A DNA stretch of 50,577 nt, taken from the IMG/VR virus record IMGVR_UViG_3300043409_000744, positions 1 through 50,577 of that record; one strand, written 5' to 3'. Of this stretch, positions 2,094 through 49,782 are shown piece after piece. The stretch is from a virus. The notes under the pieces were generated by a model. That model searched no databases and had not been told where the DNA came from. It worked only from the letters and a program-made list of their open reading frames with translations. The position numbers were made by a program, and so were the translations under genes. Within the stretch, counting starts at the first letter, position 1, and each line of letters begins with the position of its first letter.

Positions 2094-2094
2094 C

Positions 2095-2346: not shown

Positions 2347-2363
2347 GATTGGTCTCCTGAAAT

Positions 2364-2385: not shown

Positions 2386-2390
2386 ACTCA

Positions 2391-3065: not shown

Positions 3066-3084
3066 TGTTTTTCTCCACTAGCAA

Positions 3085-3106: not shown

Positions 3107-3112
3107 TCCAGG

Positions 3113-4018: not shown

Positions 4019-4043
4019 TGGTTAATCTCCCTGTCCGCGATTC

Positions 4044-6348: not shown

Positions 6349-6350
6349 GA

Positions 6351-6890: not shown

Positions 6891-7171
6891 CAGTACATTT
6901 CCTTTCTTTTTTGCTCCGGTATTTTGTCGTCGTCAGGCTGATGCATTTGCCTGTACGTTTCGTTGATGGCCTCGATCGCATTCGCATACGCGCGAGCCAA
7001 CGCATTCCCTTCGATAGCCTGAAGGGCAATTTCTTCTACAGTCGTGGCAGGGGTAAACCGATCGCCACCCGATGAGGGGCGGAACCGCACGTTAAGTGCG
7101 TACTCAACAGCGCTATCTCGCGCGCTGCCCAGCTTATCTATCGTGCGCCTTCGAAGCTCTTCCGCGCTCAT
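6890..7171 (-). CDS. Small helical phage protein
   Basis: 93 residues. It opens MSAEELRRRTIDKLGSARDS and continues with amphipathic helices (VEEIALQAIEGNALARAYAN), ending in a charged tail. A GGAGAGAGTTA ribosome-binding site supports the start although it overlaps the previous gene by 38 nt. Its last base overlaps the next gene's start. No family recognised. Confidence 0.75.
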   Translation of the reverse strand: MSAEELRRRTIDKLGSARDSAVEYALNVRFRPSSGGDRFTPATTVEEIALQAIEGNALARAYANAIEAINETYRQMHQPDDDKIPEQKRKEMY

Positions 7172-7325
7172 TAACTCTCTCCGGTATTTTTTTGTACGAT
7201 TTAGAACGATCCGCAGCGTGGAATTCTTTGGCCACTTTCAACGGAACGCCGGCCTTGGCGGCGAACTTTGGATTGTTCGCCGCCGCCGCCATTAGCCGAA
7301 ATTGAGATTTCGACCGACTCGGCAC
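7134..7325 (-). CDS. Small basic phage protein (SKxQFRLMAAAANNPKFA type)
   Basis: 63 residues, GTG start that overlaps the previous TAG (TAGTG). The N-terminal pattern SKSQFRLMAAAANNPKFAAK followed by GVPLKVAKEF and DRSKSYKKIPER is one I recognise as a recurrent small protein in structural clusters of proteobacterial short-tailed phages. Highly basic; function unknown. Confidence 0.75.
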   Translation of the reverse strand: MPSRSKSQFRLMAAAANNPKFAAKAGVPLKVAKEFHAADRSKSYKKIPERVNERGRASKAHDR

Positions 7326-10811: not shown

Positions 10812-10822
10812 GACCCTACCTA

Positions 10823-12355: not shown

Positions 12356-12553
12356 TCACTCAGCCAACCGCTTACCCAGATCCATCACACGGTCCACAAA
12401 GACCCAAGCCTCATCCCAACCCGCCTCCGAGATATCCACAACCACCCGCTTCGGACCCTCAGGATCCCGGTACGTCCGCAGAAACCCACGGACATCAGCC
12501 TCAGCACGAACGATCGCTTCAGTCATGACCGTCTCAGTGGCGCCCTCAAGCAT
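12356..12553 (-). CDS. Small hypothetical protein before TerL
   Basis: 65 residues, acidic N-terminal helix (TEAIVRAEADVRGFLRTYRD), then a strand PKRVVVDISE and helix DEAWVFVDRVMDLGKRLAE. The first ATG overlaps the previous gene by 8 nt; an internal ATG at 12526 is an alternative. Compact alpha/beta pattern, no recognised family. Its tight placement between the terminase genes suggests co-translation with TerL. Confidence 0.65.
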   Translation of the reverse strand: MLEGATETVMTEAIVRAEADVRGFLRTYRDPEGPKRVVVDISEAGWDEAWVFVDRVMDLGKRLAE

Positions 12554-12791
12554 TACAGACCTCCTCCGGCTGCAGCCTAGACACTACATGCTCCAGAATT
12601 AGCAGCGCCGTGGGGGAAATAATATTCGCGTACACGCCGATGTTCCGGTTCTCAGTTACGCCGATCATGATGATGTGATCAAAGTGGTGTGCCGCCCGCG
12701 CCAGCCGCAACATCTCATCCGCCCCAGTCGGCACCTCAATAATGCTCATCTTATCGGCCATCTTATTGTCCGTCTTAACAGAGTCAGTCAT
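12546..12791 (-). CDS. Small hypothetical protein in terminase cluster
   Basis: 81 residues from the ATG at 12791, which overlaps the stop of the 46-residue gene before it and has a GAGGACGG ribosome-binding site. A longer reading to 12836 would overlap that gene and is less likely. Sequence: acidic N-terminus, VPTGADEMLRLARAAHHFDH, IIMIGVTENRNIGVYANI, then a helix. Function unknown. Confidence 0.65.
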   Translation of the reverse strand: MTDSVKTDNKMADKMSIIEVPTGADEMLRLARAAHHFDHIIMIGVTENRNIGVYANIISPTALLILEHVVSRLQPEEVCNA

Positions 12792-12924
12792 TCGCCACCG
12801 TCCTCGTAAAACGACCATCTTCGTCTCTGGCGTCATTCCTCTGAGCCACCTTCAACTCAGCCTTCAACACCTCAATCTCAGCCCTTAACCGTCGAATCTC
12901 CGACCACGGCCAAATCCATCCCAT
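12784..12924 (-). CDS. Small coiled-coil protein overlapping the TerS 3' end
   Basis: 46 residues: MGWIWPWSEIRRLRAEIEVL, then KAELKVAQRNDARDEDGRF. A Trp-rich N-terminus leads into a heptad-like helix. The ATG lies inside the 3' end of the small-terminase gene in another frame and is preceded by AAAGGGAT. The stop overlaps the next ATG. Tiny single-helix proteins of this kind are common in phage packaging clusters. Confidence 0.6.
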   Translation of the reverse strand: MGWIWPWSEIRRLRAEIEVLKAELKVAQRNDARDEDGRFTRTVAND

Positions 12925-13456
12925 TTCCAATCCCTTTCACTATTGGCGTAACATCAATCACGTCCACCATCGCACCACGCTCACTCACCAACCGGCGCAA
13001 ATCCTCCAACGACATCTCCCGCACAGCCACCCGGTGATTAATATTCACCGTCTGCTCCATGAACCCCAACAACTGCGCCTGCGTCTTCACCGCCGTAATC
13101 GCACTCGCATACTGCTTATCCGCCAAAGCCTGCTCATGCGTCCGCTGCAACTCATCCAACAACATCTCCCGGCTATACATCCCCGGAATCTCACGCAAAG
13201 ACACACGCTCCCCACGCGCCTTCAACTCCCTCGTAAACCGTATAGCCGCCTGGATCTCCGGCCGCTCCAACGTCCGACGAGCCACCACCTCCATCGGATA
13301 TCGCGGATCAACCATCCCACTCTTGTTACACGCCATATAAGCGTTCCCAGAGCGAACATACTCCTCCACGAAAATCGCCTCAGGCGTCAACCGGGTATCA
13401 CCCTCAACACCAAACAACGCCTCCTCACCCAGGATACTCGTGAAATCGTCAGCCAT
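12878..13456 (-). CDS. terS: Terminase small subunit
   Basis: 192 residues. After a short acidic start it carries LTPEAIFVEEYVRSGNAYMA, then YPMEVVARRTLERPEIQAAI, a helix-turn-helix-like DNA-recognition region of the terminase_2 type. A coiled-coil oligomerisation part (SREMLLDELQRTHEQALADK, VKTQAQLLGFMEQ) and a C-terminal tail follow. Expected to recognise the packaging site and stimulate TerL. It is the first gene of the leftward operon, 26 nt downstream of a candidate promoter. Confidence 0.82.
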   Translation of the reverse strand: MADDFTSILGEEALFGVEGDTRLTPEAIFVEEYVRSGNAYMACNKSGMVDPRYPMEVVARRTLERPEIQAAIRFTRELKARGERVSLREIPGMYSREMLLDELQRTHEQALADKQYASAITAVKTQAQLLGFMEQTVNINHRVAVREMSLEDLRRLVSERGAMVDVIDVTPIVKGIGNGMDLAVVGDSTVKG

Positions 13457-18881: not shown

Positions 18882-19910
18882 ATGACCGCCTATTACAACG
18901 AGATCGACCCGTATGCTGCGGCGTGGCTGCGGAACCTGATCGCTGCGGGGCGCATTGCCGCCGGCGATGTGGATGAACGATCAATCAGGGACGTGCAGCC
19001 GGATGACATCAAGACGTACACGCAGTGCCACTTCTTTGCAGGGATCGGGGTCTGGTCTGCCGCTCTTCGACTGGCTGGATGGGCGGACGACCGACCCGTC
19101 TGGACAGGCAGCTGCCCCTGCCAGCCCTTCAGTGCTGCCGGTAAGGGAGGCGGGTTCGATGACGAGCGACACCTCTGGCCCGATCTCTTCCGTCTCATTG
19201 CGGAGTGCAAACCTGGCGTTGTCTTTGGCGAACAGGTTGCGAGCAAGGACGGCCTCGCTTGGCTCGACCTTGTACAAGCTGACTTGGAAGGAGCGGACTA
19301 CGCCAGCGCAGCGGTCGATCTCTGCGCTGCGGGCGTCGGGGCGCCGCATATCCGACAGCGATTGTATTGGGTGGCCGACGCCGCACACCAGCAGCAGCAC
19401 GGGAGCCGGGACGCAGGGTCGAGCGGGCGGGATGAACATTCAGACGGCGTCGCAGCTATCGGGCTGGCCGACGCCAGTGGTGAACGACGCGACGGGCAGC
19501 AAGTATTCCTACAGTCGGGGGGACCACGACAGGCCGGTGCTGAAGCTACCAGGGACAGCCGACCTAGCAGGCTGGCCGACGCCGACGACGCGAGACTATC
19601 GGTTCGCGAATGCCCTGCCGTGGAGCGAGCGGGGTGGCGGGACGAAGGGCGAGCAGCTGAACAACCAAGCGGTGCATATGCTGGCGGCGAATCCGCAGCC
19701 CGCCCGACTAACGGCGTCTGGCGAGATGCTGACTGGATCTTCTGCAGGGATGGCAAGTGGAGGCCAGTTGAACCCGGCACATTCCCGTTGGTTGATGGGG
19801 CTGTCTCAAGGGTGGGACGACTGCGCGCCTATGGCAATGCGATTGTCCCGCAAGTTGCGGCCGAAGTGATCGCCGCATGGATGGATTTTTCATTGGAAGG
19901 GAAAGACTAA
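18882..19910 (+). CDS. dcm: C5-cytosine DNA methyltransferase
   Basis: 342 residues. Motif I CHFFAGIGVWSAAL (about residues 49-62), motif IV GSCPCQPFS (76-84) with catalytic Cys80, a motif VI variant VVFGEQV (about 113-119), motif VIII HIRQRLYWVAD, and a C-terminal motif X-like RLRAYGNAIVPQVAAEVI. The target-recognition region is compact. It methylates cytosine using S-adenosylmethionine, probably protecting phage DNA from host restriction. Unusually, residues 30-325 are overlapped by a long open +1 frame whose product also looks like a real protein. The stop overlaps the tas-like start (TAATG). Confidence 0.9.
   Translation: MTAYYNEIDPYAAAWLRNLIAAGRIAAGDVDERSIRDVQPDDIKTYTQCHFFAGIGVWSAALRLAGWADDRPVWTGSCPCQPFSAAGKGGGFDDERHLWPDLFRLIAECKPGVVFGEQVASKDGLAWLDLVQADLEGADYASAAVDLCAAGVGAPHIRQRLYWVADAAHQQQHGSRDAGSSGRDEHSDGVAAIGLADASGERRDGQQVFLQSGGPRQAGAEATRDSRPSRLADADDARLSVRECPAVERAGWRDEGRAAEQPSGAYAGGESAARPTNGVWRDADWIFCRDGKWRPVEPGTFPLVDGAVSRVGRLRAYGNAIVPQVAAEVIAAWMDFSLEGKD
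18967..19869 (+). CDS. Overlapping-frame protein inside the methyltransferase gene (WPTP-repeat type)
   Basis: 300 residues in the +1 frame of the methyltransferase gene. LANRLRARTASLGSTLYKLT, WKERTTPAQRSISALRASG, repeated GWPTP (four copies) and GGQLNPAHSRWLMGLSQGWD are patterns I remember from proteins deposited beside or as phage cytosine methyltransferases. Both frames of this DNA therefore resemble recurrent proteins. It may be translated by internal initiation or be a fixed consequence of the methyltransferase sequence. No strong ribosome-binding site is seen at 18967. Confidence 0.45.
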   Translation: MWMNDQSGTCSRMTSRRTRSATSLQGSGSGLPLFDWLDGRTTDPSGQAAAPASPSVLPVREAGSMTSDTSGPISSVSLRSANLALSLANRLRARTASLGSTLYKLTWKERTTPAQRSISALRASGRRISDSDCIGWPTPHTSSSTGAGTQGRAGGMNIQTASQLSGWPTPVVNDATGSKYSYSRGDHDRPVLKLPGTADLAGWPTPTTRDYRFANALPWSERGGGTKGEQLNNQAVHMLAANPQPARLTASGEMLTGSSAGMASGGQLNPAHSRWLMGLSQGWDDCAPMAMRLSRKLRPK

Positions 19911-26727: not shown

Positions 26728-28230
26728 ATGGAGCTTCGTGATTATCAGCAGTCATCGATTGATGGGATCAGAGATAGCTTTCGCAAGGGCAACAGGCGCG
26801 TGCTGCTGGTGCTTCCGACAGGGGGCGGGAAGACCGTATGCTTCAGCTACATCGCGGCCGGCGTAGCCAAGAACCAGAAGCGCGTCCTGATCATCGCCCA
26901 CAGGCGAGAGCTATTGAAGCAGATCAGCACTGCCTTGAAGATGGTCGGTGTCCACCATGCGGTGATGACTGGCGGGTACATAGGGATCCCGACCGCGCCC
27001 GTGGTGGTGGCCAGCGTCTTCACCCTGGCGAAAAGGGTGCATCGTTTCCCGGCCCCAGACCTGGTGATCGGAGACGAGGCTCATCACTTCACGCCAGACA
27101 GTAGCTGGGGCAAGGTCGTGCAGTCCTTCCCTAACGCCAGGGTTCTGGGGGTGACGGCCACGCCCGAGCGCTTAGATGGCAAAGGCCTTGGCCTGATGTT
27201 CGATGACATGGTTCAAGGTCCGAGCGTTGCTGAACTCACCGAGCTTGGGTTCCTGTCGCCGGTAGATGTGTACGCGCCGAGTAAGCCTGACCTCACAGCC
27301 GCGCGCACCAGGGTCGGAGACTGGGTGGTCAGAGATCTTGAGAGCGCGATGGACAAGCCGTCGATCACAGGCAACGCGGTCACCCACTATCGCAGGCTGG
27401 CAGATGGCAAGCGCGCGATCGCGTTCTGCGTCTCGGTCAAGCACGCAAAGGAAGTGGCGAGGGAGTTCAGCATGGCTGGCTACCAATCCCACCATGTGGA
27501 CGGCGGCATGAAGGAAGCTGAACGCGACAGCGTCCTCAAGAGATTCGAGTTGGGGGAGATTCAGATCCTGACCAGCTGCGACCTAGTGAGCGAGGGGTTC
27601 GATCTGCCGGCTGTCGAGGTGGCCATCATGCTGCGGCCCACGAAGTCGCTGTCCCTCTACCTGCAGCAGGCTGGCCGAGCGATTCGTATATCTCCAGGTA
27701 AGGAGAAGACGGTCATCCTCGACCACGCCGGGAACACGGCAGTGCATGGGTTCATTGATGAGCCTCGAGACTGGGCGCTATCGATCGGCAGTGCCCGAGA
27801 GAAGCAAGAGGGGCCGGCTGTACCAACAGTTCGAACCTGCCCGGAGTGCTTTGCGGTTCACCGGCCCATGATGATGTGTCCCAAGTGTGGCTACGAGTAC
27901 AAGGCGGCCGGTCGTGTGGTTCACCAGGTCAAGGGCGAACTGGTGCAGGTCAGCAAGTCTGACGAAGCCAAGGCTGCGATGTCTGAGTCGGATGTCATCC
28001 GTCGCTTCAATGTGCTGACGGCTATCGGTCGCAGTCGGAAGTACGACAAGCCACAGCAGTGGGCGTTCAATGTAATCTGCGGGCAGGAGGCAGCGCGCTT
28101 GGCTAAGCAGCGAGACGCAGTCAATCATCGTATGATCAATGGCCTTACCGCCAATGAGAGGAACGCCATATGGACGCAGACGATCGGGAAGAGTCAGAGT
28201 TCCGCAAGTTCATCATCCCGGTGGCGTTAA
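26728..28230 (+). CDS. SF2 DEAH-box helicase
   Basis: 500 residues. Walker A LPTGGGKTV (residues 29-37), DEAH box GDEAHH (about 114-119), motif III VTATPER, and C-terminal motifs including LTSCDLVSEGFDLPAVEVAI and YLQQAGRAIR (motif VI). A four-Cys zinc ribbon, CPECF and CPKCG (about 370-388), follows. This is the RecG/UvsW/RadD-like phage helicase type used in fork restart or recombination. It lies between the primase-helicase and the nuclease-recombinase genes. Confidence 0.9.
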   Translation: MELRDYQQSSIDGIRDSFRKGNRRVLLVLPTGGGKTVCFSYIAAGVAKNQKRVLIIAHRRELLKQISTALKMVGVHHAVMTGGYIGIPTAPVVVASVFTLAKRVHRFPAPDLVIGDEAHHFTPDSSWGKVVQSFPNARVLGVTATPERLDGKGLGLMFDDMVQGPSVAELTELGFLSPVDVYAPSKPDLTAARTRVGDWVVRDLESAMDKPSITGNAVTHYRRLADGKRAIAFCVSVKHAKEVAREFSMAGYQSHHVDGGMKEAERDSVLKRFELGEIQILTSCDLVSEGFDLPAVEVAIMLRPTKSLSLYLQQAGRAIRISPGKEKTVILDHAGNTAVHGFIDEPRDWALSIGSAREKQEGPAVPTVRTCPECFAVHRPMMMCPKCGYEYKAAGRVVHQVKGELVQVSKSDEAKAAMSESDVIRRFNVLTAIGRSRKYDKPQQWAFNVICGQEAARLAKQRDAVNHRMINGLTANERNAIWTQTIGKSQSSASSSSRWR

Positions 28231-28801: not shown

Positions 28802-29737
28802 ATGACTATCATCACGGTGCGCGACGAGGCGCATTGGCATACGCTACGCGCCATGCACATTGGCGGCAGCGACGTAGCTGCCCTGTTTGGACTGTCGCCC
28901 TACACGAGCAAGTGGCAGCTGTGGATGGAGAAGGCTGGCAAGCTGCCGCCCGAAGATCTCAGCGGCAACATGGCTGTTCAGGCCGGCAAGTTCCTCGAGG
29001 CTGGCATCGCCAACTGGGCGGCGTCCAAGTGGGGCATGACCATCTCCAAGGTCGAGGAGTACCACGCAGCCGGCGACGTGATCGGCATGGGTGCCACCCT
29101 AGATTACGCCGACGACAAGGGTTGGCCGGTGGAGATCAAGTGGTCCGCCAGAGGGACGGGCTGGGAGTACTCCGGCGAAGACATCACCCAAGCTCCGGAC
29201 AACTATCTGCTGCAGTGTCAGCACCAGATGGCTTGCTATGGTGGAGACGCGGCGTGGCTGATTGCCCTGATTGATAACGAACCGCGCCGCCTACTCGTCC
29301 CTCGCAGCGAGGAGATCATTGAATCCATCAAGTCCTCATGCGTGGAGTTCTGGTTCAGCATCCAAGGCGGCACGCCTCCTGATCCAGACTTCAGCATGGA
29401 CGGCAGCACGATCTCCCGGATGATCGGGCAGATACCCATCACGGATTGTGTCCTTGGCTCTGAGGATGAGGAGCTCTTTAATCGGTACATCAAGGCGGCT
29501 GAAGCTGAGAAGGCTGCACTTGCCGAGAAGGATGCCACGAAGGCAGAGCTTCTGCTCAAGGCCAGCGAGGCTATGGCTCTCCTCAACACGTCGTCCGACA
29601 AGGCCGTGGTCCGCTGCGGCGAACGCAAGATGTCGATCTCTAGGGTGGCCGACAACCCAGGCAAGGCGGTCACGCAGGACATGGTCGGCACGATGGTTGG
29701 TGCCCGCAAGGGATACCAGACGGTGAGGGTTAGTTAA
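28802..29737 (+). CDS. YqaJ-family recombinase exonuclease
   Basis: 311 residues. IGGSDVAALFGLSPYTSKWQ (about residues 20-40) is the YqaJ signature. The nuclease core includes GKFLEAGIANW, GMGATLDYADDKGWPVEIKW (the D...ExK pair about 98-117) and QCQHQMACYG. A long charged C-terminal helix follows. It would resect double-stranded DNA 5' to 3' as partner of the annealing protein RecT encoded next. ATG behind GGAGAAAC. Confidence 0.88.
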   Translation: MTIITVRDEAHWHTLRAMHIGGSDVAALFGLSPYTSKWQLWMEKAGKLPPEDLSGNMAVQAGKFLEAGIANWAASKWGMTISKVEEYHAAGDVIGMGATLDYADDKGWPVEIKWSARGTGWEYSGEDITQAPDNYLLQCQHQMACYGGDAAWLIALIDNEPRRLLVPRSEEIIESIKSSCVEFWFSIQGGTPPDPDFSMDGSTISRMIGQIPITDCVLGSEDEELFNRYIKAAEAEKAALAEKDATKAELLLKASEAMALLNTSSDKAVVRCGERKMSISRVADNPGKAVTQDMVGTMVGARKGYQTVRVS

Positions 29738-29895
29738 TGAAAGAGACTGTCAATGTTCGCTTGGGTAAGGCGCATGTGGATCGAGTCCGATCCGCCGCCG
29801 CCAAGCACACGCTCAAGCCGACGCTGCGTGCAGCGATCGAGCGCGGCACTGAATTGGTAATCAAGGAAATGGAAGAGGAGAAGCAGAATGACTAA
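29737..29895 (+). CDS. Small RHH-like protein
   Basis: 52 residues. TVNVRLGKAHVDRVRSAAAK, then TLRAAIERGTELVIKEMEEE: a strand followed by two helices, like a ribbon-helix-helix repressor. It overlaps the YqaJ stop by one base and the recT start by 8 nt. It may regulate the operator upstream of the YqaJ gene; that is inference. Confidence 0.55.
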   Translation: MKETVNVRLGKAHVDRVRSAAAKHTLKPTLRAAIERGTELVIKEMEEEKQND

Positions 29896-30940
29896 CGCCG
29901 TAGCACTGCAGCCGGCCAAGCCTATGGATCGGTTCCGTCAGGATCTGACCCTGCGCGAGGGCATGATCCGCTCGCTGCTGCCGAGCAACGTAACCTTCGA
30001 CAAGTTCATGGCTGCCGTCGTCGCCGCCGTGGGCAACAACCCGGCGCTGCTCGAGTGCGATCGCGGGTCGCTGGTCAAGGCCTGCATCCAGGCTGCCGAG
30101 CTTGGCCTGTCCCTGAACCTGACGATGGGCGAGTGCGATATCCTCAAGGTCTATGACCGGCAGAAGGGCAGCGTCGCCCAGTTCCGGCCGCGCTACATGG
30201 GCCTGATGAAGCTGGCCCGACAGTCGGGTGAGGTGCTGAAGATCGAGGCAGAGATCGTTCGTGAGAACGACGAGTTCCTGTTTCAGAAGGGCGACGAACC
30301 CAGGCTCGAGCATCGCATCAAGCTGGGTGGTCGTGGTCCTATGGTCGGTGCCTACTGCATCTGGACCCTGAAGAACGGGGAGAAGCAGTTCGAAGTTATG
30401 GATCGTGACCAGATCATTGGGATCCGCGATCGCTCTTCGGCCAAGACGAAGGAGGGCAAGATCGTTGGACCTTGGGCCACCGACGAGGAAGAGATGTGGC
30501 GCAAGACGGTGGTGCGCAGGGCGTCGAAGTACATGCCCCGGTCCCTTGAGGGTCTGGCGAATGCGGTGGCGGTAGACAACCTGCACGAGGCTGGCCGTGA
30601 TGTTGAGATCGACAACGGCCAGGTCATAGACATCACCGAGGACGGAGAGTGGTCCGAGGTGCCGGCCCCCAAGGAAGCGACCAATCAGGTCAACGACCTC
30701 GCAGCCAAGGTCAAGTCGGCTACGCAGAAGACCGCGTGGGCGCCTGAGATCCTTGAGGTTGGCATTGATGAGGACGGCCTGTCCGACTGGAAGACGTGGT
30801 GTGAAGACGCCATCGCCGTGGTCACAAAGCTAGGCCCCGAACAGAAGATGGCATGGATGAAGATGCACAGCGGCGTGCTGGGTGAGGCCGAGATGATGGC
30901 ACCCAACGACACCAGCAAACTGATGGGAGTTCTCGAATGA
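29888..30940 (+). CDS. recT: RecT-family single-strand annealing protein
   Basis: 350 residues. The RecT core is clear: ALLECDRGSLVKACIQAAEL, GLSLNLTMGECDILKVYDRQ, then FRPRYMGLMKLARQSGEVLK and WRKTVVRRASKYMPRS. The C-terminal 100 residues are variable and acidic. It anneals complementary single strands produced by the YqaJ exonuclease and takes part in phage recombination and repair. Confidence 0.93.
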   Translation: MTNAVALQPAKPMDRFRQDLTLREGMIRSLLPSNVTFDKFMAAVVAAVGNNPALLECDRGSLVKACIQAAELGLSLNLTMGECDILKVYDRQKGSVAQFRPRYMGLMKLARQSGEVLKIEAEIVRENDEFLFQKGDEPRLEHRIKLGGRGPMVGAYCIWTLKNGEKQFEVMDRDQIIGIRDRSSAKTKEGKIVGPWATDEEEMWRKTVVRRASKYMPRSLEGLANAVAVDNLHEAGRDVEIDNGQVIDITEDGEWSEVPAPKEATNQVNDLAAKVKSATQKTAWAPEILEVGIDEDGLSDWKTWCEDAIAVVTKLGPEQKMAWMKMHSGVLGEAEMMAPNDTSKLMGVLE

Positions 30941-31348: not shown

Positions 31349-34300
31349 CTATTCAGGCCTAACCTCTCGGCGACTACCCACCAAGCCACGCTTCGTGTCG
31401 TAGTAGGTGCGGTTGAACTCCGAGTAGATCTCGTCCTTCTCCGGCTTCATCTCATCGAAGATACGCTTGCGTTCCCCCAGATCGGTGACCCCATAAAGCG
31501 CCTCATTCCTGTCCTTGTAGAACTGGCGTAGCGCCTTCGTCGCATCCTTGTAGGAATCGATAACAGCAGAGTCCGTTTCAACGGGGTACTTTCGCTCCTT
31601 CGCAGCCCACGCCTCTTCGGTGTCATCCTCTTCGGACTTAGCAATCTGATCCATCTTCGACGTGTTTTCGTAGAAAGAATTCTGAGCGGCATACTCACCG
31701 CCAGATCCAAGGTACGACTTGAGAATGGGTATATCGCTAAGCTTTTTTTCTTCAGTCGTGGCGAGGTTGGCTATATCCCTGAGGGTCTTGACCGGCCCAC
31801 CACCCATGCCGTTGATGAAGTACCGATAGAACTCAGGCTGAAAATTAACGTAGCCTTTCACATTCCCAGATCCGCCAGTGGCATCGTTCATCATCTGGGC
31901 AAACCACTTGTAGCCAGCCCCGGTGCTTTCACGACCCACGCTGGACTTTGCCTCCCCTTCATCGAAGGGCTCATCAAAGATACTTTTGCCCCAGTAATCC
32001 TTGTTCCTGAGCACGGAGATAGGCCACTGCAGAATGCTTGGCATGAGGGTGGCCCAGATGTCACCGGGCTCTCCAGTGGCAACCTTAACCGGCGAGTACG
32101 CCTGCATCGCTCCCTTGGCCACCTCAAATATATTGCCGATCAAAGAGGCGGCCACGCTTTCAGGCTTGCTTGATCCCATTACAAGTTCCGCAATCTTCTG
32201 TCCCGCATAGGCCGGGAAACTTACAAGAAAACCAAACGGCAGCGCGACGTAGTCGTTCGCCTTCGGACCAAAGTAGATGATCAGGTTGGCCATCTTCTTG
32301 GTGTCATCAAGGTCATCGTAATTGGTGATGCCATCGTCATCGTCATCGCCGCCGCCCATCATTTGGTTCCACAGCGAGGTCAGGGCACCAAGCATAACAA
32401 ACGACGCCAGTACGCGCCGACCGTTGCGGCTCTTCAACATCTGCGTTTGCTTGATTGTGGACTGGACCGAGGGGTTGGCAAAAAAGTATAAATCATCCAG
32501 GGTTCCAGACCACTCACCCTTACGGCTCAGGTCCACGGTGGACTGACGCGCCAGTCGAGCAGCGTCGGCCGGCGTGATGCCAGCCTCTAGTGCCGCACGA
32601 TATGTGGCAAATCGGAACACCGTGTTGGTGAAATCAAAGATCTTAGTCATGAAGTCGCCAACAGCCTGGACCCCCTCTTGAGTGCGGAGGATCGGGTTCT
32701 GCTTTCCAAGGTTCTTGAGGCGAGCGAGTTCTTTATTAATCCCCTTAACATTTTCTACAGCATCACTGATCATGGCGTTGCCATCAGTTCCGCCGTCACG
32801 GAGCATGGTTTCATACAGATCCTGCATCTGCTGCTGCTGCACGTTTGACCCAGCGCTCTTCTTATCAAGGTAACCCCACGTCGCACCCCATGTGGTCGGG
32901 GAGAAGGCGTACCTGATTGTGTTCTTGGCGATCTTCTTACCTTCGGCCGCACCCCCAGGCATCGACTCTGCCGAGTAGGCCGTGACGATTGAGTCCATGA
33001 GATCGCGGATCGGTCCGGTCCTGAGAAGGTAGTACGCATTGAAGCGCGTCATGAGGCTCTTCAAGGCTGCGGTGATAGCGCGATACCCTTTGCGGACCTC
33101 GCCGATCTCCTCAGGAGTCATGTTGGCATAGGCCCGAGCTGTCGCGCGGCCGCCATCGGTGTTTTCAAATTCAATGTAGTGAGCCACGCCATTCTTCTTC
33201 ACGACGAGAAATTGTGTGGCGTTGGATTTCATGTTCATGGAGCGCCACTTGCGCTTGCCGGTCACCTTATCGATGGCACCAGGCACACGCTTCGGGTTCT
33301 TGTCGGTATAGACCTTGGCTATATCCGACGTGCCCGCCGGATCTATTAATAGGTTGTTCAGGAGCGGCAGCGTTGCGGTGTTCTTCTCAATGCGAAGCAC
33401 CAAGTTCTGTGCGTCAACCATGAGGTTGGCAATTGGATTGAAGGGCATCGTCTTTCGACCAGAAGCTTTGCGGTACTCCCTAGGGGAGATCCCTTTCTGC
33501 TTGCGACGAAGTTCGTCAAACCCGGAGTGCGGGTTCTCTTCGTTAGGAACATTCATGTCACCGGCCAGCGCCCAACCTTTGAGGGGGGTGTAGAACGGCT
33601 GCTCCTTACGGAGGAAGACAGCCTCGGCCGCAGTCATAAGGCCATTGTCCACGCGCATCTTGATCATCTTATCGACCAAAGCGTCATGCACTTTGAAGAA
33701 CTTGTTGATGGCCAGCATTTTTCCAGACCGGAAAAGGTCATCAAGTTCGGCTCTAGCCTCAACGTCCGTCAGGCCAGACCCTGGTCCTTGGAAGTCAGGA
33801 GTATTCTTATCTACGATGCGATTGCGATCTGGAGCGCTTCTAGCCCACAGAGCCATGCCGAGGTCTTGCGGATCAGCGCCGGCTTTCGCCGCCTCAATGA
33901 TCGCCTTCCTGTACGGCTCAATCTCATTGCGATTAAACACCTGAGATGCGCCGCTTGATTTTGCGTTCAGATCCGCCAGGCCTTGGGCCACGTCAAAGCC
34001 TTCAGGCAGCCGCGCCAGTTGTTTGTCCGGTGGCAGCGACGCATTCGTAGCGTTGAGAACCTGCTGATTGAATGGATTAGCTTCGGCGTACTTGGTGCCA
34101 AACTTCTTGTTCAGAAAGTCCAGCAGGGATTTTGTTCGGACGACATTAGCCTGAACTGACGCAGCGTTCAGCATGTTGGCTGGCTGCTGGGATGGCGGCT
34201 GCTGCGGTGGCTGCTGCGGTGGCTGCTTGGGTGGCTGCTGCGGTGGCTGGCCTACATTCCCAGCTTGCGTAGCTCCGGCGCCAGAGCCTGCACCGGGACG

Positions 34301-37300
34301 CCCGCGTCCAGTAGCTCGAGTGCTTTGCGCAGACTGGCCGAGTAGTCGTTGCCCGGTTCTTCCCGTTCGGCCATTTCCATTGTCGCCCGAAGGTTCCCCC
34401 TCATTAGCTGCTTCGGATATGGACTCGTAGCTGCTCTCTGAGAAACGGTTTCCACGAGGCCTGATATTTTCATAGTCGTAAACCCTTTGGGCTTCAGCCA
34501 AAATGTCAGCAAATTCTCTTGTTTGTTCGACAACATTGCCTTCAAACCAAGAGAATGGGAAACCGCCTGCCCGATCAGCAGCCTTCAACTTATTTTGAAT
34601 CCGCTGCATCTCAGCAGGGAAGTCGGCATTATGGCTGCGAACTTGGAAGTGGGCAAGCTCATGAATCATTGTCCCGACCATGCCAAAGCCAGCAGTGATA
34701 GGGTCTTTATCCTCCGGAATCGCAGGGTTGATAAACATCCCTGGAAACGGAAGTCTAATTGAAACGCCGCGATATTCTTTATCAAAGGAAACGCCGACAG
34801 CTTCGTTCGTTAGGCCGAGATACGTTGGGTCGAGATACCCCATGAGAGATGCGACTTCGTCACGCAGCGTCTTGAATGCATCGCCCACCATGAAGGCGTA
34901 CTGATCAAATCGATCTCCAAATTTAACGCGCATGTAGTCGCTAAACGGAACATACGTTCCATCAGGCTGCTCAACTTCCACGTTGTCGTGAGCCATCACC
35001 CTGTTTGGATCGATCAGGGATGGGTCCATTTTCAATTCATCAGCCGATGGAATGCCGTTCTTCAGCTGATCAGGTGTAAGCTCTGGCAATTCCTTTCCGT
35101 TGACAATCAACCTACCGTCTTTGACCTCAACATTATCTCCAGCTTTAATCTTGGAAAAATCTGTTTCGATCACCGGAATGTTTGGCATCAGGTCAATGCC
35201 TGCCCCAAGCTCACCATTCTCATCAAAGTACTTTATCTCTCCAAAGCTTTTGGCACCCTCACTTAGACTATCAATTGCATAGATCGCGTTTATGTAATTG
35301 ATAATTTTATTGTAATCACTTTTTGCCTGCTCAGTTAGAGACTGCCTGTTGAAACTAAACGGATACCCAGGCTCTTCGGGTTTTACGGACGGGTGAATAT
35401 CTACGTAAAACGTCCTTGGGATATTATCTCCGTAACTTTCTTTTGGGTTTTTCTTTAGGGCTGAAGAAAATTGCCAAAGACCATTTGAAAGAACGTGAAT
35501 GTTTTCTCCATAGGTAGAACCATTTGGTTCCTTCTCAACATAAACGTCTGCAGTGCCCCAAGGAAATTTAACCTTTACAAATGATGTGTAATCTTTTGAG
35601 TTGAATTCAGATCCAATTCCGTAAACAGTTGAGCCATTAAAATCTACATCAATGTCCGCAAACATCGGGCTTCTGCGCAGCGCCTTTACGGAGTAAACAT
35701 TTGTAACTTCTTTAATACTCTTCTTTCCACCAGTTGTGGGGTCATCAAACTCCATAGGCGTGGTGATGGAGATGAAGGTGCCGTGACCATCCGGGAACAT
35801 AGCGCGATCAGCCTTACTGGGCTGACGCACCTCAATATCTGGGGCAGCGTTCTCGTCCTCAAGAGAGTCAAACAGTTGAGGACCAGACGTGTTTAGCTCA
35901 GAAACTTTTCCGTCTCGCATGGTGATAACACGGAGGCCGTCGTTCCCGTAAAGGAACAGCATCTTGGCGATACCAAACCCGCCAGATGCATTTTCAGATT
36001 CCTTGCCAGTACCAGCGATCTCAAGAAATTTTCCACCCAAAAGCTGAGGCGTCATGCCCGAGCCATTGTCGATCATTTCAATCGTATGCCCGTCCAACGA
36101 CGTTTTGATTGAGATGCGACCCTTCTTGATCGCGCCCTTCGCCATCGAACCCTTGATGGCATCAAAGGAGTTTTGAAGGATCTCCTTGATGGAGACAGCG
36201 CCCATGTCTGTAGGATCGCCATACAATTGAGGGCCAAGCATCTTGGCCATGCGACGGGCGTTCACACCAGGCTTGGAACGAATGGTTTCGGCCATTGGTT
36301 CTTCGCCGCCTGAGAGCTGCTGAGATTCCTCAGTTTCAGCCTGAGCGTTTTCGCCTATGATCTGAGACACGATCTGAAGAGCGTTACCCTTCTTGGACTT
36401 GATCGCGGCCGCAGCTTGAGGCGCAACCTTTGGTGTTGCCTTGATCGTCACTGTAGGCGCAGCGACATTGAACACGGCCGGGGCCTTAAGCGAAGCAGTC
36501 GGCTTAGGCGCAGCAGCTGACGCCTGCTCAAGTTCGCTCCTGACCTGAGCGCCAATGCTGGCGACTTGATCGTCAGGGATATTGTTCCGACTCAGCCAAT
36601 CCACGAAGCGGCTCTTGGCTGCTGGTGTTGTGTCAGAGGTGGCGATATAGGCGGCGCGCTCGACATCGCTGCCGGTCCAATCAACCGGGTGTCCCTTGTA
36701 CCTTGGCTTAGCCACAGCCAGGTCGGCGTCCAGCTTAGGCGCAGGGGTGGGCGTCGGCACGACAGGCGCGGCAGCTACGGGTTCAGGCTCAGGTTCAGGC
36801 TCACGAGTTGCTATGAACCTGGTCGGTGCGGCTGGCGTAGGCGTAGGCGTAGGCGTGAGCGTGGGCGTCGGGACGACAGGCGCGTCGGGCGTGGGCGTGG
36901 TCGTGGGCGCAGGATCACGAGTTGCTATGAACCTAGTCGGCGCACCAGGCGCAGGCGTGGGCGCAGGCACGGGAGCAGGAGTAATGAGCGGGGCTGCCAT
37001 ATCCGGGGCTGCCATATCCGGTGCCGGTGCAGGCGTGAGCGCAGATACCTCGGCATCAGGGATCTTGCCAACCGGAACAGACACCGGAGCAGAGTATGCC
37101 GGCAGACGCATCGGTTCAGCAGGGTTTGCACCACCGACCCGGATGTTGTTCCTGATGTCATTCCGAATCTTCAGGCCGATCGCTTCGATCTCAACAGGAT
37201 CCGAGATGCCTTTGGAGTTCAGCCACTCTAGGTATTTGGTCTTCACCTTCGCTGCTGTCTTCGATGGCGACGGTGATGTGGCGATATAGACGGCCTTATC

Positions 37301-38782
37301 CAGGTCGTTGTCGAAGGTGAGAGCAAATCTGTCTGGGCCGAATTCAAAGTCTGGCTTAGCTCGAGATAGAGCCGTAGGCAGAGCCGGGATGGCAACCGCA
37401 GGCGTAGGCTCTGCAGTGGTGATGGGCTCAATAGGCGCAGGCGTAGGCGCAGGCGTAGGGGTGGGCGTGGGCGTGGGCGTGGGCTCAATAGGAGCAACAT
37501 CGGTAACATCGATAATGCCTTGGCCAGCAGAAAACGTGGGCTCCGGTTCGACAGGCGGCGCGGCTGCAACAACAGGCGCGGCCTCAGGGATCAGCCGGCT
37601 TTCAATCTCTGAAGCCGGGACTTCGATAACCCTGCCGTCGATAACCCTGCCGTCCGGGAAGCGAACAGTTTGAAATCCACCCTCATCAGGCTCCGACAGA
37701 ATTTCGATAGACGTGGGAACCGGCGGGGGTTCAATCTCTTTCCCGTCTTTATCAACCTCCCAGGTTTCTCTGGGCGGCGTCATCCCGATCGTGACTGTAC
37801 GCAGGGGTGGCGCACCAGGAACGATGGGTGCTGCAGGAGCAGGAGCCGGAGCTGCCCCAGGTGTAGGGGGCAGCGTCTCAGGCGGACGGGATCCCGCAAG
37901 AGCAGACATGGCCTTGCCTGCGCCAGCGTACACACCAGCAGTCATGCCGGTAGCGAGCGCAGTCTCACCTAGCTGGCCGGGAAGTTCCTTAAGGTACTGG
38001 CCCCACGTCTTGTCAGGGTTAGCAATTGCGGTATCGACTGCGTTCTGCGTTATCGTGGCAACCAATTCCCCAGGAAGTTCTCTTCCCAAGAATTCTGCAA
38101 TGGTGCGCCCCACGCCAGCTACGCCAAGGTTCTTGACAACATTTATCATCGGCAGGAATTCAGTGGCGACTTCGATACCAGTCTCAAGGCCAGCACCTAG
38201 CAACGCTTCGCCACGGCTTGCTTCGCGATCAAGTCTGTATTTGGAATAGGCCTGAGGCGCGGTGATAGCGGCAATGTTAGCCATCACCGGAGCAGGGTTC
38301 CTAGTGATGACAGATGCAGTCAGGCCTGGAAGAGTTTGTATGATGGAACTCGCTGCTCCATAGGCAGCTCGAGGCACCACCCCCTTAAATTCTGGAGTTG
38401 CAAGTTCCTCGCTGAACCCAGCCCGCCTAGCCGCAACTTCATTTTGAGAGGGTAGCGTTATCTCGGGCAGACCAAGGCCCCTGCCAATCCCCTTGACTAT
38501 CGGATCCACGACTGGAGCAAGAGCATCCTCCAACGCAAATTTTGTTTTTGGAATAATGCCGCCGATCTGCGTACGAATACCCTTGATGGCATTGATGATG
38601 TTCCCTTCCGGAGCCCTAGGTGCCTGAAGGGTTTGAATCCCCATCTCGTTCAGGAAGTCACTCTTGGAACGGGCGTCGGGACCAGACGAATAAAATTTCT
38701 CATGCAGCGCGTCGAGCAACTGCATGTCTGGGACATCATTATACTGAGGGTACTTGGATCGGAATTCCGACAGAGACGGCAT
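31349..38782 (-). CDS. Giant polyvalent internal virion protein (GHKL ATPase, HELAH motif, LPD38-like)
   Basis: 2477 residues. The N-terminus FRSKYPQYNDVPDMQLLDAL is the start motif of large phage ejection-type proteins. A hydrophobic helical region (about 110-330) and Pro/Thr repeats follow. Two copies of a 45-residue module (D.ERAAYIATS...W..) occur around 490 and 700. A GHKL/Hsp90-like ATPase has EILQNSFDA (about 864), DNGSGM (902) and GGFGIAKM (933). MIHELAHFQVRSH (about 1370) looks like a zinc metalloprotease site. A QPP linker and an LPD38-like region (about 1620-2160) close it. Probably packaged and injected with DNA. ATG at 38782 preferred over TTG at 38839. Confidence 0.85.
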   Translation of the reverse strand: MPSLSEFRSKYPQYNDVPDMQLLDALHEKFYSSGPDARSKSDFLNEMGIQTLQAPRAPEGNIINAIKGIRTQIGGIIPKTKFALEDALAPVVDPIVKGIGRGLGLPEITLPSQNEVAARRAGFSEELATPEFKGVVPRAAYGAASSIIQTLPGLTASVITRNPAPVMANIAAITAPQAYSKYRLDREASRGEALLGAGLETGIEVATEFLPMINVVKNLGVAGVGRTIAEFLGRELPGELVATITQNAVDTAIANPDKTWGQYLKELPGQLGETALATGMTAGVYAGAGKAMSALAGSRPPETLPPTPGAAPAPAPAAPIVPGAPPLRTVTIGMTPPRETWEVDKDGKEIEPPPVPTSIEILSEPDEGGFQTVRFPDGRVIDGRVIEVPASEIESRLIPEAAPVVAAAPPVEPEPTFSAGQGIIDVTDVAPIEPTPTPTPTPTPAPTPAPIEPITTAEPTPAVAIPALPTALSRAKPDFEFGPDRFALTFDNDLDKAVYIATSPSPSKTAAKVKTKYLEWLNSKGISDPVEIEAIGLKIRNDIRNNIRVGGANPAEPMRLPAYSAPVSVPVGKIPDAEVSALTPAPAPDMAAPDMAAPLITPAPVPAPTPAPGAPTRFIATRDPAPTTTPTPDAPVVPTPTLTPTPTPTPAAPTRFIATREPEPEPEPVAAAPVVPTPTPAPKLDADLAVAKPRYKGHPVDWTGSDVERAAYIATSDTTPAAKSRFVDWLSRNNIPDDQVASIGAQVRSELEQASAAAPKPTASLKAPAVFNVAAPTVTIKATPKVAPQAAAAIKSKKGNALQIVSQIIGENAQAETEESQQLSGGEEPMAETIRSKPGVNARRMAKMLGPQLYGDPTDMGAVSIKEILQNSFDAIKGSMAKGAIKKGRISIKTSLDGHTIEMIDNGSGMTPQLLGGKFLEIAGTGKESENASGGFGIAKMLFLYGNDGLRVITMRDGKVSELNTSGPQLFDSLEDENAAPDIEVRQPSKADRAMFPDGHGTFISITTPMEFDDPTTGGKKSIKEVTNVYSVKALRRSPMFADIDVDFNGSTVYGIGSEFNSKDYTSFVKVKFPWGTADVYVEKEPNGSTYGENIHVLSNGLWQFSSALKKNPKESYGDNIPRTFYVDIHPSVKPEEPGYPFSFNRQSLTEQAKSDYNKIINYINAIYAIDSLSEGAKSFGEIKYFDENGELGAGIDLMPNIPVIETDFSKIKAGDNVEVKDGRLIVNGKELPELTPDQLKNGIPSADELKMDPSLIDPNRVMAHDNVEVEQPDGTYVPFSDYMRVKFGDRFDQYAFMVGDAFKTLRDEVASLMGYLDPTYLGLTNEAVGVSFDKEYRGVSIRLPFPGMFINPAIPEDKDPITAGFGMVGTMIHELAHFQVRSHNADFPAEMQRIQNKLKAADRAGGFPFSWFEGNVVEQTREFADILAEAQRVYDYENIRPRGNRFSESSYESISEAANEGEPSGDNGNGRTGRTGQRLLGQSAQSTRATGRGRPGAGSGAGATQAGNVGQPPQQPPKQPPQQPPQQPPSQQPANMLNAASVQANVVRTKSLLDFLNKKFGTKYAEANPFNQQVLNATNASLPPDKQLARLPEGFDVAQGLADLNAKSSGASQVFNRNEIEPYRKAIIEAAKAGADPQDLGMALWARSAPDRNRIVDKNTPDFQGPGSGLTDVEARAELDDLFRSGKMLAINKFFKVHDALVDKMIKMRVDNGLMTAAEAVFLRKEQPFYTPLKGWALAGDMNVPNEENPHSGFDELRRKQKGISPREYRKASGRKTMPFNPIANLMVDAQNLVLRIEKNTATLPLLNNLLIDPAGTSDIAKVYTDKNPKRVPGAIDKVTGKRKWRSMNMKSNATQFLVVKKNGVAHYIEFENTDGGRATARAYANMTPEEIGEVRKGYRAITAALKSLMTRFNAYYLLRTGPIRDLMDSIVTAYSAESMPGGAAEGKKIAKNTIRYAFSPTTWGATWGYLDKKSAGSNVQQQQMQDLYETMLRDGGTDGNAMISDAVENVKGINKELARLKNLGKQNPILRTQEGVQAVGDFMTKIFDFTNTVFRFATYRAALEAGITPADAARLARQSTVDLSRKGEWSGTLDDLYFFANPSVQSTIKQTQMLKSRNGRRVLASFVMLGALTSLWNQMMGGGDDDDDGITNYDDLDDTKKMANLIIYFGPKANDYVALPFGFLVSFPAYAGQKIAELVMGSSKPESVAASLIGNIFEVAKGAMQAYSPVKVATGEPGDIWATLMPSILQWPISVLRNKDYWGKSIFDEPFDEGEAKSSVGRESTGAGYKWFAQMMNDATGGSGNVKGYVNFQPEFYRYFINGMGGGPVKTLRDIANLATTEEKKLSDIPILKSYLGSGGEYAAQNSFYENTSKMDQIAKSEEDDTEEAWAAKERKYPVETDSAVIDSYKDATKALRQFYKDRNEALYGVTDLGERKRIFDEMKPEKDEIYSEFNRTYYDTKRGLVGSRREVRPE
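34190..34255 (-). repeat. CAG/CCG-type repeat encoding a Gln-Pro linker
   Basis: Repeated GGCTGCTGCGGTGGCTGC words encode a QPPQQPPKQPP linker of about 20 residues in the giant protein, between its metalloprotease-like and LPD38-like parts. A flexible hinge; slippage-prone DNA. Confidence 0.6.
36801..36943 (-). repeat. Direct repeats and GGCGT microsatellite in the giant gene
   Basis: TCACGAGTTGCTATGAACCT occurs identically at 36801-36820 and 36915-36934, encoding APTRFIATR twice. Between them GGCGTA/GGCGTG hexamers (36834-36875, 36888-36908) encode PTPTP linkers. Similar hexamers recur at 37437-37484. The repeats make the linker length unstable by recombination. Confidence 0.7.
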
Positions 38783-38813
38783 TTTTGAATTCCAAAAATT
38801 AACTTTTTGAATC

Positions 38814-40157
38814 TTAGTCCCCACCGTCAGCTGATTCAACTCTCGGCGGACGCTTCAAGCCCAGAGGATTTGTAGCGCTAGGAGCGACAGATGAAGCGCC
38901 AGACGAAGCGCCAGGTGTCATTTTAACCGCAAGATCAAAGTAAGCTTTTGCCTGTTTTTCAAGCGCATCTGCAACAGCAGGATTCTCCCGGTCGAACCGC
39001 CGCGCCTCCTTTGCGGAGATCATCAGACTGCGAGCTGAAGTCATGTAAGAGTCAATTACGCTTGCAGTAGAAGGGTCAAGACCGCCGGTATCTTTAGCTC
39101 GTTGAACATCGCTCCTGAGTTTTTCGATCTGAGCGCCAATCAGCTGACCCTGTTTGCCATAATAACCAGTCCTCGCGAAGATTTCTTTAATCTCAGCTTT
39201 AGACCTTTGAGGCGCGTCACGCGCCGTAACCTTAGCCGTGATTGCCTCAGCTTTAGCTTTTTCAAGTCCAACCATAATAGCCTCGAACCGAGCTGGTTCG
39301 GTAGCTGCGTCAAAGAGAGCCTTATTTTTAGCACCTATAATATTAGCTTGAGTTTCGGTGATTTCGTACCCGGCCTTCAGGTCATTCACAGCATCTGTAC
39401 GAACCTTCTGAAGCACCTCGTACCGCTTGAGGATCAGATCTTCCTGGCGGGTCTGGAGGCGAGCTTTCTTCTCGGACGCATCCGCACGAGCCTTGTTGAA
39501 GCCGGTGAGCCCGGACTCCAAGCCCTCAGCCAGAGCGCTGGCAAAGTACGGGCTCTGGCTCTGAGCCATTTTGGCGCCGGCCAGAGCGAGCGCCATCCAG
39601 TACTGCTGCTTGCGCTCCTTGCTTACATCCGCAATCTCAGCTTCGGTGCGCTGGCCGATCGTATCAAAGTATCTCTTCAAATCCTCAGGAAGTTCGGCGC
39701 CTTCCCTGGCTTTTTTAACGACATCTGGGCCGCTCTGAAGCAGTTTGGCTTCTTCTTCCGGTGTGAGCGATAGCTTCGGCGGTGCAGCGGCAGGCGGTGC
39801 AGCGGGAGCAGGGGGGACAACAACGTCTTTAGCCGCTGAACCCAGGAGAACATCCTGCCCAGAGTTACCCGAGATTAAATCCGTACCGGGAGGCCGCGTC
39901 TGGTTGGCTGCCAGGATAGCCTGGTTCCTGAAGTCGGTGGCCATCGGAGGTGCCATCGGAGGCGGCGCAACGATAGGAACGCCAGCCTGCACAGGAGCCG
40001 GATCAGCAGGAGACACTTCAACAGGCGGCGTCATCGGCGCGCTATTGGCAGCGTCGGCTGCCATCATGGCAGCAATGAACGCCTCCGGATCCTGGCCCGC
40101 AGGAACCATCTTCGGATTCATCCTGATCCGGGAGAGGGCTTCTTCACGAGTCATCAT
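38814..40157 (-). CDS. Internal virion-type helical protein
   Basis: 447 residues. The N-terminal 150 residues are Pro/Ala-rich. The remainder is long coiled coil: LAEGLESGLTGFNKARADAS, EDLILKRYEVLQKVRTDAVN, IGAQIEKLRSDVQRAKDTGG. It lies between two other internal-protein-like genes and overlaps the upstream stop. The layout resembles ejection proteins stored inside the capsid of short-tailed phages. No enzymatic motif. Confidence 0.7.
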   Translation of the reverse strand: MMTREEALSRIRMNPKMVPAGQDPEAFIAAMMAADAANSAPMTPPVEVSPADPAPVQAGVPIVAPPPMAPPMATDFRNQAILAANQTRPPGTDLISGNSGQDVLLGSAAKDVVVPPAPAAPPAAAPPKLSLTPEEEAKLLQSGPDVVKKAREGAELPEDLKRYFDTIGQRTEAEIADVSKERKQQYWMALALAGAKMAQSQSPYFASALAEGLESGLTGFNKARADASEKKARLQTRQEDLILKRYEVLQKVRTDAVNDLKAGYEITETQANIIGAKNKALFDAATEPARFEAIMVGLEKAKAEAITAKVTARDAPQRSKAEIKEIFARTGYYGKQGQLIGAQIEKLRSDVQRAKDTGGLDPSTASVIDSYMTSARSLMISAKEARRFDRENPAVADALEKQAKAYFDLAVKMTPGASSGASSVAPSATNPLGLKRPPRVESADGGD

Positions 40158-48066: not shown

Positions 48067-49782
48067 TTAATCTACCGCCTGTCTTCCAGCTTCTTCCAGC
48101 AAGAGGAGGTTCTGGCGCATCCGGGTATCGTCGGGGTTCTTCTCAACCGCAATCTTGGCCTGCTCAAGAGCCACGCCTGACATCTTCATATTGAATGCAG
48201 CCACTGAAGCCAGGTCGTGAGGCCACGCACCCCAGACAGCCACATCGTTCGTAAACGTCGTGTCGCGTGTATCAATGCGAAGGGCCGACATGGCAGCACC
48301 GAAGCACTCCTCCCAGCGGCCATCGTTGTGGGCCTGCTGCGCCAATTCACACCAAGCCTCTCTGGTGTGCGGATCCTCAATCACAGCCTTCCTTGCCCAA
48401 GCGACAGCGTCGCTCTTCTGGCCGAGGGCCGCGCAGCATCGCGCCATAGTCCGCATGGCGTAGCAGCGCTCCTTGTTCCAGGTTGCCCCCGGAAGGCTGA
48501 GGAAACGATTGAACTCAGCTAGGGAGTGATCCCATCGCTGCGTGAAATAGAGTTCTCTGGCGTAGTAGAAGCTGTAGCGGTGGCTCTGCGGATCCTCAGC
48601 GGCCGCCGCGAACAGCATATCCAGATACTGCCCACGGCTCTTCGTAACGTCCGGAAGGTGGGTGGCTAGCACTTTGTCTGTGCCGGCGAACCGCTCTTCA
48701 ATCCGATCAGCGCAGGGGTACTCGTGGCACAGGTGTTTCCAGACGTACCCATGACGCGCGTGAATCTTTTCATGGACAATGATGTAGCCGGATCCGCAAT
48801 CGAAGCCGTACCGCAGACGGGTGATGCCGTGGGTCCAGAGGCGCTCGACCTCTTCTCGCCAACCTGGCTCAAGAATCTCGTCCATATCCAGCGACACGCA
48901 GATATCAATGTCGGCCGGAATCAGGGACAGGGCCGCATTGCGCGCCGCATCAAAGCGCCAGGGAGAGATATGGATCTGGTGAACCTGCGTTCCAAACAGC
49001 TTGCTTGCGATCTCCACCGTGCGGTCGGTGCTGCCAGTGTCGGCAATGAGAACTAGGTCCGCCTCTGACGCCGAGTTCCAGAATCTCTCGACGTGCTTCT
49101 CTTCATCCTTAGCGATGGCATAGACGCAGATCTTGGGCTTCTCGCGAACCATATGGGGTAGCCACTCCTTAACGAGTTCTGGCTTGTTTTGCTGCAGCCA
49201 GGGAAACGCATCGTTGGTAAGCGCCGTGGCATCGTGGCCGATCGTCTGAGAGCCAGCATGGTGGACGTAGGCCGGCGAGACGAAGTGCTTGAACCCAAGA
49301 GCGTTGAGCGCCTCGCAGATCACATCGTCCGAGTACCAGTTCAACGGTGGAAACCGAGCAGCCTGGAAGGCCTTCTTCGAGATCCAAGCCAGCAGCGGAG
49401 AGACGGCGCGAACCTGACGCACCTCGTTAGATTGAACGTGGGCTATGTTCTGATCAACGCGGACGTTGTCCGACATTGTGGCCACGAACCCGAGCATATC
49501 GCCGTGCTGAGTCTTCAGCGCCGCGACATCAGCCATGAGCCTGGCCATCGTATAGGGGGTTAGAACGATGTCGTCATTGGCAATCAGGATCTCATCGTGA
49601 TCCTTGAAAGCCTCGTCCATCGCATCGTTGTAGGCCTCCCCGAATGTGCGGAGAGGCCCTTCAGAAACGAGCAGCCAATGGTCAGGTGCGTGTGCCTTGA
49701 CGCTGGCAGTTAAAACGGGGACGCAGTTTCCATTGACCGTGCAGACGACGATCGGTGGTGTTAGCTGAGAATCTAGCGCCAC
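48067..49782 (-). CDS. Glycosyltransferase fused to TPR repeats
   Basis: 571 residues with two glycosyltransferase-like halves. Residues 1-210 (TPPIVVCTVNGNCVPVLTAS, EILIANDDIVLTPYTM) show a GT-A-like nucleotide-sugar motif with DD. Residues 215-330 are a GT family-2 domain: ICVYAIAKDEEKHVERFWNS, VLIADTGSTDRTVEIASKLF and CVSLDMDEILEPGWREEVER. The C-terminal 180 residues are TPR-like (SLAEFNRFLSLPGATWNKER). It could glycosylate virion proteins or host surface sugars. No signal peptide. Confidence 0.85.
   Translation of the reverse strand: MALDSQLTPPIVVCTVNGNCVPVLTASVKAHAPDHWLLVSEGPLRTFGEAYNDAMDEAFKDHDEILIANDDIVLTPYTMARLMADVAALKTQHGDMLGFVATMSDNVRVDQNIAHVQSNEVRQVRAVSPLLAWISKKAFQAARFPPLNWYSDDVICEALNALGFKHFVSPAYVHHAGSQTIGHDATALTNDAFPWLQQNKPELVKEWLPHMVREKPKICVYAIAKDEEKHVERFWNSASEADLVLIADTGSTDRTVEIASKLFGTQVHQIHISPWRFDAARNAALSLIPADIDICVSLDMDEILEPGWREEVERLWTHGITRLRYGFDCGSGYIIVHEKIHARHGYVWKHLCHEYPCADRIEERFAGTDKVLATHLPDVTKSRGQYLDMLFAAAAEDPQSHRYSFYYARELYFTQRWDHSLAEFNRFLSLPGATWNKERCYAMRTMARCCAALGQKSDAVAWARKAVIEDPHTREAWCELAQQAHNDGRWEECFGAAMSALRIDTRDTTFTNDVAVWGAWPHDLASVAAFNMKMSGVALEQAKIAVEKNPDDTRMRQNLLLLEEAGRQAVD

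Follow-up and report, generated by a model that had tools for sequence, protein, structure and literature searches.

An exchangeable cassette joining an Hsp90-type ATPase to a Wss1-like zincin in a giant polyvalent phage protein

Introduction

The LPD38 polyvalent proteins (Iyer et al., 2017; PMC5512222) and the DarB-like giants of Bcep22-like phages are giant late-gene products in which variable effectors, among them zincin, ART-PolyVal and ddrB-ParB domains, lie upstream of a shared C-terminal core. The zincins of polyvalent proteins have often been proposed to cut the polypeptide to which they belong (PMC5512222). P1 DarB is a head protein whose first 30 residues steer a reporter into the capsid (PMC9024508), and gp69 of Burkholderia phage JC1 was identified in CsCl-purified virions by mass spectrometry, with 51 unique peptides (PMC9144972). 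In the main text of Iyer et al. (PMC5512222), GHKL, Hsp90, gyrase, histidine-kinase and Bergerat ATPases are not mentioned as domains.

GHKL ATPases are found in phages as the rIIA proteins (T4; gp33 of the N4-like phage G7C), which have a variable C-terminus and are among the listed phage counter-defence systems (PMC7824862). In the bacterial Shedu protein VcSduA, an N-terminal GHKL ATPase is coupled to a nuclease effector and is thought to control it (PMC12137116). Hsp90/HtpG, MORC and Topo VI-B each combine a GHKL domain with a middle or transducer domain and have in common invariant E, N and D residues, glycine boxes and an NR loop. MORC, Topo VI-B and gyrase clamp DNA with ATPases of this kind. 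Wss1 and SPRTN (WLM/SprT-like), which carry the zinc motif HExxHxxxxxH, cut DNA-bound proteins.

Each ingredient, from polyvalent proteins and LPD38 to zincins and phage GHKL proteins such as rIIA, is already known; in the main texts of the open-access literature that we searched, we came across no description of a GHKL-zincin unit within injected proteins. Here we describe such a unit in a phage giant. The window analysed is a stretch of 50,577 nucleotides that makes up a complete IMG/VR record (IMGVR_UViG_3300043409_000744), with no direct terminal repeat of 10 or more bases at the record ends.

Results

A minus-strand late gene encodes a polyvalent LPD38 protein

A sequence-only reading of the window had described a 2477-residue protein with GHKL and protease-like motifs at this locus, with the strand unstated. 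The protein is encoded on the minus strand (Table 1); the plus-strand reading of the same interval is full of stops, and all four motifs named earlier (EILQNSFDA, DNGSGM, GGFGIAKM and MIHELAHFQVRSH) lie in the giant's reading frame. The ATG lies approximately 30 nt past the stop of the upstream gene, and the frame remains open to a TTG 19 codons farther upstream, from which residues are numbered here. In a scan of the giant protein for membrane segments, no stretch of 19 residues proved strongly hydrophobic.

Table 1. Features of the giant gene and its upstream neighbour. Residue numbers count from the TTG at 38839.
Feature	Position	Strand	Basis or remark
Giant polyvalent protein	31349..38782	-	2477 aa from ATG; 2496 aa from in-frame TTG at 38839 (open frame 31349-38839)
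Upstream gene, 447 aa	38814..40157	-	Relatives in L002 and L123
N-terminal 37-residue motif MPSLSEFRSKYPQYNDVPDMQLLDALHEKFYSSGPDA (residues 20-56)	38672..38782	-	Common to N-termini of otherwise different giants
N-terminal scaffold (residues 70-300)	37940..38632	-	Shared with L002 (about 91-95%) and L123 (44-50%)
Exchanged cassette	34238..37004	-	No nucleotide match in sibling phage L002
Pro/Thr/Ala-rich linker (residues 620-847)	36299..36982	-	Sequence
Hsp90-like GHKL ATPase and middle (S5/transducer) domain (residues 858-1268)	35036..36268	-	AlphaFold, VIA-align, Foldseek
N-box EILQNSFDA	36158..36184	-	E886, N890, D893 invariant 13/13
G1 box DNGSGM	36053..36070	-	D924, G926, G928 invariant
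G2 box GGFGIAKM	35960..35983	-	G953, G954, G956 invariant
FNRQSL loop	35336..35353	-	N1164, R1165 invariant; motif comparison
Zincin metallopeptidase domain, Wss1/SprT-like (residues 1277-1471)	34427..35011	-	AlphaFold pLDDT 93.8
Zinc motif HELAHFQVRSH	34631..34663	-	H1393, E1394, H1397, H1403 invariant 13/13
Gln/Pro-rich linker QPPQQPPKQPP... (about residues 1525-1556)	34172..34267	-	Joins cassette to C-terminal core
C-terminal core (residues 1606-2485)	31385..34024	-	Common to phage giants including JC1 gp69 and BcepMigl DarB-like protein
LPD38 domain, PF18857 (residues 2173-2373)	31721..32323	-	Pfam E 1.3e-18, 68.2 bits vs cut-off 27

The giant gene comes after the 447-aa gene, and portal, terminase, capsid and tail-fibre genes are carried on the same strand. 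The 447-aa gene occupies the same position as the gene for the JC1 virion protein gp68 (PMC9144972), a likeness of position. Elsewhere in the window, a glycosyltransferase family 2 domain with TPR repeats is encoded amid the late genes [48067-49782 (-)], and the plus strand carries a C-5 cytosine methylase (18882-19910) and a ResIII/helicase-type ATPase (26728-28230) followed by YqaJ and RecT genes (28802-30940).

The C-terminus, previously called LPD38-like, contains a genuine LPD38 domain, scoring far above the Pfam cut-off. The motifs do lie inside a polyvalent protein: a single polypeptide combines LPD38 with unrelated effector domains, here GHKL and zincin. The final 880 residues have matches in giants of Vibrio phages and of phage P27, in Burkholderia DarB-like proteins and in a Methanosarcina virus, as well as at 80 IMG/VR loci, and a profile of the core matches JC1 gp69 over approximately 850 residues (3654-4506; 294 bits). 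The C-terminal core is the only part that the giant shares with the DarB-like giants; the LPD36-MTase-SF2 methylase-helicase dyad of DarB had no Pfam match in the giant at E<=1. Regular-expression matches to DxGxG in many LPD38-core giants proved to be a conserved PDGGSGM stretch of the core (in L003, L004, L010 and others) rather than GHKL boxes, a mimicry that could mislead motif searches.

The N-terminal 37-residue motif (YPQYNDxxDxxLxxALxxKFYS) recurs at the N-termini of L119, L120, L128 and L079 and in proteins of other phages. Because it is analogous to the 30-residue DarB signal (PMC9024508), we regard it as a candidate virion-targeting signal. A small domain occurs twice in the giant, at residues 487-599 and, inside the Pro/Thr/Ala-rich linker, at residues 707-799. 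In one giant that bears the module described below (L118), residues 116-434 match the N4 virion RNA polymerase PHROG (E 1e-18), a match that links DarB-like with vRNAP-like giants. Profile comparison, using small alignments, did not support kinship between the window N-terminus and this N4 vRNAP-like N-terminus.

An Hsp90-type ATPase and a zincin form one conserved module

The GHKL boxes and the HExxH motif, treated as separate features in the sequence-only reading, belong to one conserved module of approximately 620 residues (848-1466), in which a GHKL ATPase of Hsp90 type and its accompanying middle domain are followed by a linker domain and then the zincin. The AlphaFold model of the module has a mean pLDDT of 78.9.

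The structure prediction suggested earlier as a check gave an ATPase half that folds as the N-terminal and middle domains of Hsp90. With VIA-align, the model matches Hsp90B (8eob) with Z 19.7 over 296 residues at 4.0 Å (module residues 9-419), and Topo VI-B, MORC3 and GyrB with Z 16-19; Foldseek agrees on an Hsp90-like fold (best E 1.1e-10). By analogy, the FNRQSL loop appears to be placed like the catalytic arginine loop of the Hsp90 middle domain. Most Hsp90 alignments end at about module residue 419, and the zincin comes next. This succession sets the module apart from Hsp90/HtpG, MORC and Topo VI-B; no Hsp90 C-terminal dimerisation domain was identified in it. In the giant itself, HATPase_c_3 reaches E 3.8e-4 and 20.9 bits against a gathering score of 25, and HATPase_c is below the Pfam cut-off. 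HATPase_c_3 is above its gathering score in five homologues, and the NCBIfam HSP90-family model matches 13/13 members, at scores far below its cut-off. The claim of a complete GHKL signature is upheld by these five homologues and by the invariance of the boxes in all 13 aligned copies. Stand-alone bacterial GHKL proteins (L092-L110 and L005-L007, mostly ~530 aa) are the nearest cellular relatives found of the ATPase half; some of their genes adjoin PIN-like and DGQHR genes on plasmids.

The supposed zinc-protease helix is likewise confirmed as part of a Wss1/SprT-like zincin. In a model of the zincin alone (pLDDT 93.8), HExxH lies within a helix, and the third zinc ligand is intact. The best VIA-align matches are to Wss1, with Z 9.0 (5xbv, 110 residues, 2.6 Å) and 8.3, and SPRTN follows with Z 6.2; Foldseek gives E 0.07 against Wss1. 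The WLM profile (PF08325) scores 22.8 bits with the window domain against a cut-off of 26, and matches 12/12 members at E<=0.1 (best E 6.8e-6). Because the WLM score falls below the cut-off and the Foldseek E is 0.07, we call the domain Wss1-like and not a proven WLM member. The match to Wss1/SPRTN, although the best found, is moderate, and the module zincin differs from both in being fused to an ATPase. The motif exceeds chance expectation: shuffling produced HExxH in 0.6% of cases and HExxHxxxxxH in 0/5000, and the three-histidine spacing is rare in the HExxH motifs of LPD38-core giants that lack the module (1/53).

Besides the window, the module is present in 14 IMG/VR contigs, which include two pairs of near duplicates, as found by an alignment-based scan; the window module is 43-62% identical to these relatives. 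Scans with the module as a single sequence gave no matches in viral or bacterial contigs; full-length relatives surfaced only when rhizobial GHKL proteins were part of the alignment used. Among 13 aligned copies, 17 of the 18 positions checked are invariant, including all catalytic ones; these are the residues listed in Table 1 together with K946 and E1410, and D1406 is the variable one. Where computable, pairwise dN/dS is about 0.07-0.17 (~0.1) in each half of the module.

Most module-bearing giants end in something other than an LPD38-like C-terminus: a DarB-like PHROG is matched by several of them and phrog_9880 by one. The module occurs with LPD38 and ART-PolyVal in L115 and with ddrB-ParB in L123. 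In BFVD, a viral structure library, a single protein aligns along the whole module (UniProt A0A516L4L2, the best match there, E 6.4e-52). No full-length match was found in 50,697 records of cultured phages, nor in bacterial genomes (0/398 of Pseudomonadota, 0/296 of a second phylum and 0/196 of one order; 890 bacterial searches in total, from three samples that may overlap). Matches in a defence library were weak and confined to single members. The rIIA protein of G7C, which is encoded by a stand-alone gene and has no HExxH, is 31% identical to the module over the ATPase stretch only.

The module is a mobile cassette

Comparison with the sibling phage L002 shows that the module is a mobile cassette, which phages exchange for other effector domains. 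Between the two phages the cassette flanks share 87.6% and 94.3% identity, while gene positions 1836-4602 have no counterpart in L002. The GC content of the module is 47%, against 54-67% across the remaining gene. In the L002 locus (6266-12958), the corresponding slot holds a different domain set with a HEILHH zincin motif; in that of L013 (1-4419), whose core is 65% identical to that of the window, it holds HEAIH and an ART-PolyVal domain scoring above cut-off. A local profile detected other GHKL domains in 0/85 core-bearing ORFs, and a PF13589 search found no other GHKL domain in 50 records. L002 and L013 have in common a 159-residue domain (77% identity), and their cores are 64% identical.

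Discussion

We tentatively read the giant as a virion-packaged, injected polyvalent protein of the DarB/LPD38 kind in which the Hsp90/MORC-like ATPase controls a protease acting at entry, probably against a host protein; our confidence in this reading as a whole is a little short of even. The module itself is probably a fuel-controlled protein cutter that works at the start of infection. The core shared with the virion protein JC1 gp69 indirectly supports delivery in the virion, and the giant would enter the cell together with the DNA. Cellular ATP would then make the GHKL part dimerise and clamp a client, and the clamp would either hand the client to the fused protease or turn the protease on. 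A host obstacle, for example a defence or repair protein, would thereby be removed in the first minutes of infection. VcSduA offers a partial parallel for an ATPase governing a fused effector, although it is a bacterial defence nuclease and not a phage protease.

By analogy, the client may most plausibly be a host protein met on the incoming DNA, since Wss1 and SPRTN cleave DNA-bound proteins and related ATPases clamp DNA. Since Foldseek and the WLM profile both show only a moderate likeness to Wss1, a client bound to DNA is no more than a guess, and our analysis identified no DNA-binding element. The specific version, a capsid-delivered, ATP-gated protease in which an Hsp90/MORC-like clamp on genome-bound host proteins feeds the Wss1-like protease and so clears restriction, repair or silencing proteins from the phage DNA in cis, is in our estimate unlikely.

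Two observations favour an effector, namely that the slot can hold an ADP-ribosyltransferase instead and that L002 does without the module, but with the published view of zincins as processing enzymes (PMC5512222) self-processing stays in play. The zincin might cut the giant's own linkers and free the other domains, with the GHKL part sensing ATP so that the cut is made only after entry into the cytoplasm. Iyer et al. propose that the zincins of polyvalent proteins generally serve in processing (PMC5512222), the cassette is flanked by flexible Pro/Thr- and Gln/Pro-rich linkers, and 37 of 53 non-redundant LPD38-core giants have an HExxH upstream of the core. Other zincin cassettes nevertheless lack a GHKL partner, which is therefore not needed for such cutting; N4 vRNAP has a zincin yet is packaged unprocessed (PMC5512222); and the module stands alongside a second HExxH in L115, L122 and L128, which suggests a division of labour. 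We consider self-processing possible, if rather on the unlikely side. Processing might instead take place in the producing cell, where the cassette would act on head or internal proteins during assembly. The giant gene lies amid late structural genes and P1 DdrB is already processed when packaged (PMC5512222), a precedent for self-processing as well, but the near-identical L002 has the neighbouring genes and all other parts of the protein without the module, so assembly is apparently independent of it, and we regard a role there as highly improbable.

The fold of the ATPase half also brings to mind a chaperone that refolds the giant or neighbouring proteins once they have passed through the tail, with the zincin clearing misfolded copies or acting as a regulator; the giant must presumably unfold to a large extent on leaving the capsid. 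Giants on the same scaffold that have no GHKL domain at all indicate that none is needed for refolding, and past the Hsp90-like part we identified a zincin and no C-terminal dimerisation domain of the Hsp90 kind; we regard this explanation as improbable, if marginally less so than assembly. The module provides a defined, modelled construct of 620 residues for expression and assay, and the sibling phages, which differ mainly at the cassette slot, provide a natural experiment.

Zincins are common and mostly unexplained in injected phage proteins, and here one is joined to an Hsp90-type engine as a conserved unit. If the version with genome-bound clients is true, the ATP-gated clamp-protease would be a new counter-defence mechanism and a prokaryotic viral counterpart of the DNA-protein-crosslink proteases.
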